This document shows positions 2,830 through 39,494 of a DNA stretch of 64,000 nucleotides, piece by piece; position 1 is the first letter of the stretch, and every line of letters begins with the position of its first letter. The DNA lies in the NCBI GenBank assembly GCA_016794525.1, contig JAEUJY010000141.1, positions 124,001 to 188,000 on the forward strand. The letters are read 5' to 3'. The stretch comes from Myxococcales bacterium (GTDB lineage Bacteria; Myxococcota_A; Polyangia; Haliangiales; Haliangiaceae). Position numbers and translations under genes: made by a program. A model generated the notes under the pieces. It ran no database searches and had not been told where the DNA came from. It saw nothing but the letters and a program-made list of their open reading frames with translations.

Positions 2830-4541
2830 TCCGCATGCCAGGCGTCGCGATGTTCGCCGTGTTGGCGCTGGCCGCACCGGCGCTGGCGCAGCCGGTCGAG
2901 GCACCGGTCGATCCGTACGCCGAGCCGACCAAGCCGGCGCCCGTCAAGCCGACCAAGCCCGCCAAGCCCGCCAAGCCCGCCAAGCCCAGCGCCGCGCCGG
3001 CCGATCCGACGCCGGTCGATCCGTACGCCGACGCGGTGGCGGCGCCGCCGGTCGAGGCCGCGCCGGTCGATCCCTACGCCGCGCCCGTCAAGCCGGCGAA
3101 GCCCGCCAAGCCCGCCAAGCCGACCAAGCCCGCCAAGCCGACCAAGCCGGCGCCGCCGCCGAGCACCGCGCCGCTCGATCCCTACGCGGCGCCAGGGTCG
3201 ACGGTCGATCCCAACGCGGCGCCGACCACCAAGCCGGTCGATCCCTACGCTGCCCCGGGGGCGACGGTCGACCCCTACGCGCCGGCCACGACGGCGCCGG
3301 TCGATCCCTACGCCGCGCCGACCACCAAGCCGGTCGCGCCGACCGCGCCGCCGGCCACCACCGTCGCCGGGCGCATCGACGTCGCCGCCGTGCAGGGCTT
3401 GCTCGCGGTGCAGAACCTCGACGGCTGGCTGCTCGCCGATCACGGCGGCATGAACCCGGTCGCGCGCAGCCTGGTCGACGCGACCGGCGAGCCGACCCGG
3501 CGCTGGTTCTACCTGGTGCCGCGCCAGGGCGAGCCGACGCTGGTGGTCCACGCCTCCGAGGTCGCCAGCTTCGCCGCGGTGCCCGGGAAGCGCGTCGTCT
3601 ATACCGGCTACCGCGATCTCGATCCGATCCTGAAGAAGCTGCTCAAGGGCAAGAAGACCCTGGCGATGGAGTACTCGCCGCGCGGCGCGCTGCCGTCGCT
3701 GTCGCGGGTCGACGCCGGCACGATCGAGCTGGTGCGCGCCGCCGGCGTGACGGTCAAGCCGTCCGACGCGCTGGTGCAGTTCAGCAAGGCGAGCTGGGGG
3801 CTCGAGGGGCGCAAGGCCCACTACCTGGCCGCGCACCACCTGGCCGAGCTGCGCAAGGACGCGCTGGCGTTCCTGCGCGAGCGGCTCGCGGCCAACCAGC
3901 CGGTGACCGAGCGCGAGGTCGCCGATCGCATCGCCAAGGGCATGGCCACCCGCGGGGTGATCGGCCCGCCGCCGGTGGTCGCGTTCGGCGCGCACACCGC
4001 CGATCCGACCTACGCGCCGCCTGCCATCGGCTCGGCCACGCTGGCCCGCGGCGACCTGGTCTTGCTCGGCGTCGCCGGCAAGGTCGAGGGCGGCATCTAC
4101 GCCGCCGCCACCTGGGTCGCGCTCGCCGACGCCATCGTCACGCCGCGGATCGCCGAGCTGTTCGCCGCCACCGCCGGCGCGCGCGACGCGGTGATCGGGA
4201 TCATCCGCGATCGGGTCAAGCGCCGCCGCGCGATCGCCGGCTGGGAGGTCGACAAGGCCGCCGGCGAGTCGCTGCTGATCGCCGGCGTCGGTGATCTCGT
4301 CCTGCACCGCACCGGCCACTCGCTCGACGTCGATCTGTTCGGCTCGGGCACCGACCTCGACGACCTCGAGATCCACGACGCCCGCTCGCTCGTCGTCGGC
4401 ACCGGCTTCACGATCGGCCCCGGCGTCTACAGCCCCGGCGAGCTCGGCCTGCGCACGGAAGTCTCGGCGTATCTCGGCAAGGACGGCCTGGAGATCACCA
4501 CGCCGGCGCAGATGGCGATCGAGCTGCTGGTCGCGCAGTAG
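2826..4541 (+). CDS. Secreted M24-fold protein with degenerate metal site and Pro/Lys-rich N-terminus
   Basis: The 571-residue product starts with a signal peptide (cleavage near ALA, residue 21). Residues 22-180 are low complexity, with about eight VDPYA-type repeats and runs of KPAKP/KPTKP. The rest is an M24 (Xaa-Pro aminopeptidase) domain. The usual metal aspartates are gone: the LIDLWGK-like strand reads LLGVAGK and YADITW reads YAAATW (about 412-429). The glutamate of IEPG is glycine in TIGPGVY (about 530). Only the histidine in HRTGHS (about 493) and the glutamate in LRTEVS (about 544) remain. It is probably a non-catalytic cell-envelope protein. Overlaps the preceding gene by four bases. 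Confidence 0.75.
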
Positions 4542-36861: not shown

Positions 36862-37584
36862 TCACGGCGCCGGCGCAGCCGGCGGCGCGTCGGTGTAGCG
36901 CGCCGGCGAGTCGGCCTTGATGTGGTCGGGGCCGATCGACTCGCGCGCGACGCGGGTGCAGGCGGCGATCTTCTCGTTGTCGCTCATGCTCGGGCCGCCG
37001 CGGACGCCGATGATGCACTTGGTGTCGGTGTCGAAGAACTTGAACGAGTCGATGTCGAACTCGCCCGAGGGCCGGGTCTCCTTGCAGGCGAAGCCGCCGG
37101 TGTTGCCCTCGTCGGGGGCCTTCATCTCGGTGGTGGTCGCCTTGCAGCGGTCGCGGAACTTGGCCTCGTCCTCGACCACCCAGCAGTAGAGCGTCACGTT
37201 GCAGATCTCGTCGCCGGGCAGCACGCCGAGGCGGCCGTTCTTCTTGAGCAGCTTCTCCTGGGCCTTGGCGTCGGGGCGCAGGCCGCCGCGGATCAGCGAG
37301 CACGACACCGTGGCGTCGGCCATCGCGCCGGTCGAGTCGCGGACGGTCAGCGGGTCGAGCTCGCCGAGCGCCTCGGTGTACGCCGGCGGGTCCATGATCT
37401 GATCGCACTTGAGGCGGGTGCCCTGAGCCACCGGCGGCTTGACGCGATCGACCGGCTTGAGCTCGGCGGCCTGCTTGGCGCGCTCGGCCTCGGCTTCACG
37501 CTTGGCCTCCTTGGCGCCTTCCTCGGCGGAGTTGCAGGCGCTGCTGGCGACGAGCAGGAGGGTGACGGCGAGACGGGTACGCAT
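36862..37584 (-). CDS. Unknown lipoprotein with many cysteines
   Basis: A 240-residue lipoprotein (VASSAC). A charged helical segment (AEEGAKEAKREAEAERAKQAAE) leads to a compact domain with at least seven cysteines (LKCDQIMDPPAY, VSCSLIRGG, EICNVTLYCWVV, RDRCK, FACKE, KCIIGVRGG, ACTRVA), probably disulfide-bonded in the periplasm. No family was recognised. Terminator at 36835. Confidence 0.75.
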   Translation of the reverse strand: MRTRLAVTLLLVASSACNSAEEGAKEAKREAEAERAKQAAELKPVDRVKPPVAQGTRLKCDQIMDPPAYTEALGELDPLTVRDSTGAMADATVSCSLIRGGLRPDAKAQEKLLKKNGRLGVLPGDEICNVTLYCWVVEDEAKFRDRCKATTTEMKAPDEGNTGGFACKETRPSGEFDIDSFKFFDTDTKCIIGVRGGPSMSDNEKIAACTRVARESIGPDHIKADSPARYTDAPPAAPAP

Positions 37585-37949
37585 GGCGGCCGCGAAAATA
37601 CGCCGAGATCCCGGCGGCCGTCGAGTCGATCGCGCGGTGTCTCTGCTCCCGACAGTGTCGTCACCAGCGACGCCGGACGCCCAAGCCGCGGTCGTCGCTG
37701 GCGCCTGCGCCCGCGGTGCACATCGGGTCCAGAGCTTATCCACAGCGGTGTCGGGAGCGCAGACGTCGCCGCGCGCGCGCCGCGACGAGCGCCCGCACAG
37801 TTGCGCCGCGAACGAGGCTGGCACATCGACTGCAATACCTCGCTGCGTTCGGCGGTCGTAACGGACTGCTCGAGCGTGGTGGGCCTCGCCGAGGTCCTCG
37901 GGCAACCGGGGGCAGCGGACGGCCGGAAATCTCGAACGGAAGGATGATC
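37585..37949. other. Intergenic region with a single DnaA box
   Basis: No gene seen. A perfect DnaA-box sequence TTATCCACA is at 37736-37744, but no further boxes or AT-rich unwinding region accompany it, so it is not an origin. It may hold the promoter of the structured block that follows. Confidence 0.5.
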
Positions 37950-38805
37950 TAGAGATAGAGCATCGACGCTGTCGGTCGATCGAAACGCCAGGGCCAGCGC
38001 GCGCAGCACTCGAGCGGTGCGCGAGAAGGTCGAGGGTGGAGCCGCGGTTCATCGCCGGGGCAAGATCGGCAGCTAGAGTCCGAGGGAGACGCAAGCGAAG
38101 GGACACGGACACGGCCGCGGGCTAACCCCTCGAGGTCGCGCACCGGATCCCGGCCTGGAGCAAGGCCCTGAGGTCGACGCGACGCGGCTTGGCGTCGTCG
38201 GGTAACACCGGCGACAGAGGCGCGGCGCCAACGGCGCGAGGGCAGCGGCCACCGACGAGGTGGTACGGCTTGGCCGGGGGAGCAACCCCGACGCGGAATC
38301 CTGGACGTGGCAGCAGAGCGAAACAGATCTGCAAGACTCAGCGAGGAGTAAGCCGTCGAGAGCGTGCGAAACGCTGTGGGCGGAACGTAGGCGAGCCTGG
38401 GACGCTCGCCGGTAAGTGGACTCGCTGGATCGACGTCGCGAAGAGGAACCAGACCCCATGGAAGGCGCCCGGGAACGAAAGCGAACGGGCCGACGCGGAC
38501 ACGACCAACTCTGGAGGAGAGCGAAGCGCACACGAGGATGACCCCGGCTTCTTTGGAACTCGGGACGACGGAACTGCTCGGAACACCATCTCGGTCCGCC
38601 GGAAACGGCGAGGCAATGATGGGAACGGCGTAACCCACAAGCGCCGATACGACAGCTCTTACAACACTCGCAAGCGCAGCCAGCTCCACGAGAGGCAGCC
38701 AGCACGACGGTGACGTCAGGTTGGCTCGGTGCCCACGACTCGCGAACCTTCGAAGGGGACACACCAAGCTCGGCGGCCGGTTACGGCCGCCGAACGCATT
38801 TTCGG
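37950..38805 (+). ncRNA. Candidate long structured non-coding RNA
   Basis: About 850 bases with lower GC and more purines on the + strand than the flanks, and without the GC-rich third-position pattern of genes here. Separable hairpins: 38006-38020, 38078-38110, 38194-38215 (8 bp, loop GTAACA), 38225-38237, 38249-38263, 38275-38290, 38390-38410 (7 bp) and 38597-38610 (5 bp, GAAA tetraloop). The + strand ends in a strong 9-bp stem followed by ATTTTC. No tmRNA, RNase P or SRP signature was found, and no group II intron domain V. The 5' end is a guess. Confidence 0.45.
38770..38805 (+). terminator. Intrinsic terminator at the end of the candidate RNA
   Basis: TCGGCGGCC-type 9-bp stem (38770-38778 with 38785-38793), loop GGTTAC, then ACGCATTTTC. 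It is oriented so as to end + strand transcription leaving the gene-free block; the next gene is on the other strand. Confidence 0.6.
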
Positions 38806-38873
38806 GCCGGGCGGCGCGATGGCGGCGCTCGCCGCGCGGGCGCCAGGGACGCGCCGCGCCGTCGGTCCGTCGA

Positions 38874-39494
38874 CTACGGCCGCGCCGCGAGCGCCGCGCG
38901 CAGCGCCTGGTTGTCGCGCTCGAGCTCGGCGAGCCGCTCGCGCACCGGCGTCAGCGCGCGATCGATCTCGTCCTGCGTGAAGCGCGGCACGATGTGCTGC
39001 GGGCAGTTCCAGTCGAAGCCCTCGACGGTGAGCACGACGCTGCGCTCGACCTTGCCGGCGAACTCCGGCGGGGTCAGGCGCTCGGCCAGCGCGGGGTCGT
39101 CGGCGCGATCGACCAGCCGGGCCCGGGCCAGGAGCTTCAGCCGCGCCTGGGCCGGGTAGTCGACGAGGATCATCGCCACCCGATCGTCGTGGCCGAGGTT
39201 GCCGACCGAGACGTACTGGCGGTTGCCGCGGACGTCGGCGAAGCCGAGGGTGCGCTCGTCGAGGACGCGGAGGAAGCCGCGCGGGCCACCGCGGTGCTGC
39301 ACGTACGGCCAGCCGCCCTCGCCGACCGTCGCGAGGTACGCGCTGTCGCGGTCGGCGATGAAGGCGGCCTCGTCGGGGCCGAGGCGATCGCCGCCGCCGC
39401 GGGCCAGGGCGCGCGCGTAGGCGGCGCCGCTGCCGTGGGCGGCCTGCACCGCCTGCACGCCGGGCGTGAACACCAGCTGGTGGAAGCGCGGCAT
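38874..39494 (-). CDS. Pyridoxamine 5'-phosphate oxidase-like FMN-binding protein
   Basis: A 206-residue protein with the split-barrel flavin fold: FIADRDSAYLATVGEGGWPYVQHRGGP, then LDERTLGFADVRGNRQYVSVGNL and VAMILVDY. The last 30 residues are a coiled coil. It is in one unit with the AhpD-like gene upstream, 4 bp apart, under the LysR-controlled divergent promoter. Likely a flavin-dependent redox enzyme of unknown substrate. Confidence 0.85.
   Translation of the reverse strand: MPRFHQLVFTPGVQAVQAAHGSGAAYARALARGGGDRLGPDEAAFIADRDSAYLATVGEGGWPYVQHRGGPRGFLRVLDERTLGFADVRGNRQYVSVGNLGHDDRVAMILVDYPAQARLKLLARARLVDRADDPALAERLTPPEFAGKVERSVVLTVEGFDWNCPQHIVPRFTQDEIDRALTPVRERLAELERDNQALRAALAARP

Follow-up and report, generated by a model that had tools for sequence, protein, structure and literature searches.

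A large structured noncoding RNA with four homologous modules, predicted in Myxococcota and Planctomycetota

The gap between two - strand genes of a myxobacterial chromosome almost certainly contains a genuine gene for a long structured noncoding RNA on the + strand, a conclusion drawn from its homologues, from covariation that is very strong and from a consensus fold. The predicted transcript is closed by pairing of its two ends around four homologous modules, follows a putative sigma54-type promoter and has relatives in two phyla. The window analysed is a stretch of 64,000 nucleotides from a 9.8 Mb draft genome (assembly GCA_016794525.1, contig JAEUJY010000141.1), and the positions below are those of the window.

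36862-37584, - strand: left neighbour of the gap, an unclassified lipoprotein-like gene (no Pfam family)
37819-37834, + strand: putative sigma54-type -24/-12 promoter, TGGCAC-N5-CTGCA (from conservation and motif recurrence)
37845-38802, + strand: predicted transcript of about 958 nt, from inferred start to U run (single-sequence folding against shuffles, z -5.2)
37845-37881, + strand: closing helix, 5' strand, pairing with 38762-38797 (two-sided changes in 15 of 30 pairs, 11 sequences aligned)
37882-37924, + strand: small hairpin adjoining the closing helix
37930-38088, + strand: module D1, with outer helix, hairpin 1, long helix and two more hairpins (covariation)
38099-38288, + strand: module D2, branching as D1 and holding the GUAACA hairpin (covariation)
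38299-38447, + strand: module D3 (core 'A'), the most conserved (models R1 and R3)
38454-38465, + strand: D4-enclosing helix, 5' strand, pairing with 38747-38758
38467-38490, + strand: hairpin of variable length
38510-38693, + strand: module D4 ('B'), holding the GAAA hairpin (model R2)
38697-38726, + strand: hairpin with a GNRA-type loop
38762-38802, + strand: closing helix, 3' strand, or terminator stem, then ATTTT
38874-39494, - strand: right neighbour of the gap, a PNPOx-type gene

The sequence-only reading had described 37950-38805 as a gene-free block of lower GC and purine bias that would fit a + strand transcript, and the analysis bears out the lack of a gene, the base composition and the + strand fold. 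Coding signal is absent between 37584 and 38874: substitutions among the homologues are spread over the three positions modulo 3 without periodicity (989/983/933), the majority of indels are not multiples of 3, and no frame in the block is open throughout the homologues; a protein-coding gene in the gap is rejected on these grounds. A long frame on the - strand is present because the + strand is poor in T. Over 37900-38800 the GC content is 0.62-0.74 and the AT skew about +0.28 to +0.44, while the flanks mostly have a GC content of 0.70-0.80 and a skew that is negative or close to zero. Within the earlier boundaries the + strand folds better than its shuffles (z -3.1) and the - strand does not (z -0.1). 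The extent itself has to be revised, as conservation with most relatives begins abruptly at 37819, not at 37950, and ends near 38800-38828. The block as first drawn thus leaves out the promoter and the closing helix's 5' half. Neither of these was recognized in that description, nor were the pairing of the two ends, the repetition within the RNA and its occurrence in two phyla. DNA searches give matches that are about 1 kb long and 70-82% identical, both within the genus and in some of the family's other genera, and the noncoding block is kept in the same gap in most Kofleriaceae homologues. The sole same-genus genome that lacks a full copy (G004) is represented by a contig that starts within the 3' end of the RNA.

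The RNAalifold consensus of 11 full-length homologues contains 242 predicted pairs. Across the 239 transcript pairs, 95.6% of cells are paired in the 11-sequence alignment, from which the structure was itself derived, and two-sided changes are observed in 114 pairs where 47.6 are expected from shuffles (0 of 500 shuffles), so that the covarying stems that had been proposed as a check in related gaps are indeed found. Sliding the partners by 1-3 columns as a control leaves merely 34-43% of cells paired. For the core, a model built from 11 sequences was run on distant loci. The resulting alignment of 63 sequences, itself fitted to the model, shows covariation at 40 of 41 pairs, with 94.9% of cells paired and a covariation score of 0.697 versus 0.207. 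The invariant unpaired positions of the core are exclusively purines (9 A, 4 G) and several hairpin loops keep a GNRA sequence despite substitution, as expected of a compact tertiary fold. Both hairpins picked out from the sequence beforehand exist and are conserved, namely those around GGAAAC (38594-38600/38607-38614) and GUAACA (38195-38201/38208-38214). The D4-enclosing helix is weakly tested because it is mostly invariant. The loop of the 38467-38490 hairpin varies from about 7 to 36 bases among close relatives, and this hairpin is a possible peripheral insertion site.

At the 3' end, the terminator stem recognized earlier (38770-38793, followed by ATTTT) exists and is conserved, but the consensus fold makes it one half of a helix with the 5' end. 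The 3' strand of the closing helix stops at 38797, immediately before AUUUU, and the 3' sequence is also able to form a local 9-bp hairpin. As one 3' sequence would form either the closing helix or the local hairpin, termination and 5'-3' closure may compete. Two loci (L030, L031) have a weak terminator hairpin and a separate hairpin with a T run just downstream, which seems to replace it.

Within the closing helix, the consensus fold of the window's clade consists of four successive like-branched domains, and this fold was computed before the repetition was noticed. Model R2, built from domain B alone (38516-38696), matches B downstream of the core in most loci. In an unfiltered search of both strands of 85 kb from diverged loci it also matches core A in register (L061, E=2.4e-7; L057, 4.1e-7; L056, 1.4e-5; L071, 2.8e-5). 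Core model R3, for its part, picks up B in many loci and detects a further module upstream of the core, with the best match in L064 (E=3.2e-10) and another in L075. It recognizes B (E=7e-9) as well as an upstream module in planctomycete loci, the latter at the D2 position in L175 and L177. A third, upstream copy (D1) is found by the B model in the diverged locus L109 (E=1.3e-4). The corresponding match of D1 in the window's own lineage is weak (E=0.25), and its membership there would follow mainly from shape and covariation. From the cross-matching models, together with the four like-branched domains, we conclude that the modules are homologous, since models of a single module detect the others in two phyla. 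The promoter-to-end alignment of a diverged clade is too gappy for modules to be counted.

Departures from this arrangement are also observed. One locus (L034 of genome G034, 3272-3448, - strand) has module B (E=1e-24) with no core found (best 14 bits), and is by these matches a variant that has been truncated or rearranged. In one genus (L059, 2119-2316; L070, 922-1122) the B-type module is shifted downstream by several hundred bases relative to other loci, which suggests an insertion or an extra module.

The TGGCAC and TGC elements of the putative promoter are unchanged in all 11 close homologues, and the two strands of the 64 kb window contain no sigma54-type site of this kind other than 37819-37834. 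Of 78 loci, 30 have a relaxed form of the motif between 350 and 800 nt upstream of the core, where 0.6 are expected, although the 30 are not all independent because some are closely related; perfect TTGC versions occur in several distant loci. The gene for sigma54 (rpoN) is present in the window's genome and in nearly all relatives, so that both marks of a sigma54-dependent gene are there, correctly spaced -24 and -12 elements and the polymerase factor that would read them. Counting 12 nt on from the -12 element puts the predicted start of transcription at 37845, exactly where the 5'-3' closing helix begins. Control by sigma54 is not universal: no copy of the motif was detected at about 60% of loci, planctomycete ones included, and in Enhygromyxa none was seen at the distance expected. 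A scan for sigma70 promoters gave none; its terminator rule missed the ATTTT site because it has too few T.

The R1 search finds the RNA in 14 of 35 genomes of the order, and the R3 search in about a fifth of the sampled Myxococcota genomes (68 of 379, with 1-6 matches each) and in 27 of 343 Planctomycetota genomes. Five genomes (G059, G106, G126, G243 and G252) have 3-6 diverged core matches each, in different places. A rough core tree unites the Kofleriaceae copies and one member of a sister family in a single clade (support 0.80), suggesting that inheritance within it was mainly vertical; none of the genomes of g5, a large Kofleriaceae genus, carries the RNA. The copies in a Vicinamibacteria and an Acidobacteria record (L119, L163) group with Enhygromyxa in the same tree, which suggests gene transfer or mis-binned contigs, and R3 finds only the seed genome in the phylum of the Vicinamibacteria record (1 of 297). 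Records from Clostridia and Tardiphaga (L145, L152) were pattern matches only and were rejected by the covariance models. A record titled as a Klebsiella pneumoniae MAG (L147, CAMASI010000038.1) carries the myxobacterial RNA, and its title is therefore probably wrong. DNA similarity searches of phage and plasmid records gave no match, nor did an exact-pattern scan of viral contigs, with patterns that catch merely about 40% of members; a phage, viral or plasmid element was accordingly rejected.

The genes next to the RNA vary by lineage, and include glutamine synthetase, an NtrC-type regulator, CarD, TsaE, YaaA and a P450 among others. Clustering of neighbours over the loci revealed just Kofleriaceae synteny and small scattered clusters, with no family widespread beyond local synteny, and a conserved partner gene was thus rejected. 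The differing and unrelated neighbours argue for an RNA that acts in trans. In L086 the RNA lies downstream of the gene for an NtrC-type sigma54 activator and in L087 downstream of a glutamine synthetase gene, which may be a hint of nitrogen control or chance.

At gathering thresholds neither the window nor any of 20 diverged homologues matches one of the 4227 families of Rfam 15, which include tmRNA, RNase P, SRP, group I and II introns and the ornate RNAs in Rfam, and permissive scans gave chance-level matches alone, far below the cut-offs. The proposed Rfam search therefore agrees with the earlier failure to see signatures of tmRNA, RNase P RNA, SRP RNA or a group II intron, and membership of a known RNA family is rejected. 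The ribozyme relic that had been offered as an alternative is unlikely because the RNA is tightly constrained in many species and is not decaying. A literature search, in which coverage of subscription journals was slight, found no earlier report of such an RNA. The class is new and unrelated to any family tested, and as predicted from its homologues it is a long noncoding RNA with an elaborate covarying secondary structure, so that in general appearance it belongs with the loosely defined ornate large RNAs.

We propose that the standalone gene would produce a large, stably folded noncoding RNA, transcribed here by sigma54 polymerase once a signal of some kind has been sensed by an activator. 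The transcript would fold closed through pairing of its 5' and 3' ends, with the four homologous modules inside, each formed from an outer helix, a hairpin, a long helix and two more hairpins. The conserved unpaired purines would be suited to tertiary contacts, and the repeated modules could offer equivalent docking sites for the RNA's own copies, a protein or another RNA. Such equivalent sites would point to a scaffold or a self-assembling particle and not to a cis-regulator or a message. A scaffold or self-assembling RNA is our best guess at the mechanism of an RNA whose function is unproven, and it is put forward tentatively. More tentative still is the wider reading of a new RNA class in which one module has been duplicated repeatedly into a pseudo-symmetric chain, perhaps forming a particle (ring, cage or scaffold) alone or with a repeated partner, and switched by sigma54 in many Myxococcota.

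Two other functions appear unlikely, and equally so. The modules might form the catalytic core of a ribozyme whose substrate, RNA or a small molecule, is cleaved, ligated or modified, and the size, compactness and invariant unpaired purines do resemble those of known ribozymes; however, no ribozyme family matches, a single active site would not be expected to repeat four-fold, and an RNA that lies between genes is not a gene's splicing intron. The second function is that of a sponge whose repeated sites titrate a regulatory protein or small RNA, as CsrB titrates CsrA through repeated binding sites. The repetition of modules is in keeping with this, as is a three- to four-fold enrichment of GGA (33 occurrences in the 958-nt transcript, where the window as a whole has about 9 per kb). 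A sponge for CsrA in particular is contradicted by the absence of CsrA from all 20 same-family genomes searched, the window's own included. CsrB-type RNAs are not known for structural conservation of such depth. Other proteins could be the target.

A role as guide or cofactor for a mobile or defence system, which the patchy presence and the several copies in some genomes might recall, is very unlikely given that no nuclease, transposase or reverse transcriptase gene is common to the loci, that no copy was found in the phage, plasmid and viral-contig collections searched, and that the Kofleriaceae copies are one clade (bar the sister-family member) with mostly conserved neighbours. It is scarcely credible that the block is conserved as DNA or is ordinary spacer, with no function as RNA, when about 240 pairs are maintained through compensatory changes in a structure framed by promoter and U run.

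The homologous modules show that large RNAs can evolve through module duplication, much as repeat proteins do. The family spans two phyla, and its recognizable promoter class points to regulated expression. Members are present in a named isolate, Enhygromyxa salina SWB005, which already makes studies of expression, knock-out and structure feasible.

Several known systems share single characters with the RNA. Group II introns are likewise long, purine-rich and structured, but no intron family matches even at permissive thresholds, the present RNA sits between genes, and neighbour clustering found no reverse transcriptase gene common to the neighbourhoods of the loci. The CsrB/RsmZ sponge RNAs also have repeated GGA-rich motifs, but are small and loosely conserved, and their target CsrA is absent here. 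Very few large, highly structured bacterial RNAs are known, three of them being treated in one study, and their functions are poorly understood (PMC12286853). GOLLD and ROOL, which assemble into RNA-only cages (PMC12286853), are similarly large, ornate and bacterial, with extensive covarying structure and a poorly understood function. Whereas they are linked to phages, the present RNA has no match in the phage and viral collections searched and its neighbours are chromosomal; it differs further in having no Rfam match and in having a putative sigma54-type promoter. The present RNA itself consists of four homologous modules. OLE RNA, of about 600 nt, occurs in Gram-positive hosts, forms an RNA-only dimer and works with partner proteins (PMC12286853, PMC11332333). 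It is, like the present RNA, large, conserved and chromosomal with a defined fold, but no homology between the two was found. By appearance, then, the nearest known relatives in kind are OLE, ROOL and GOLLD.
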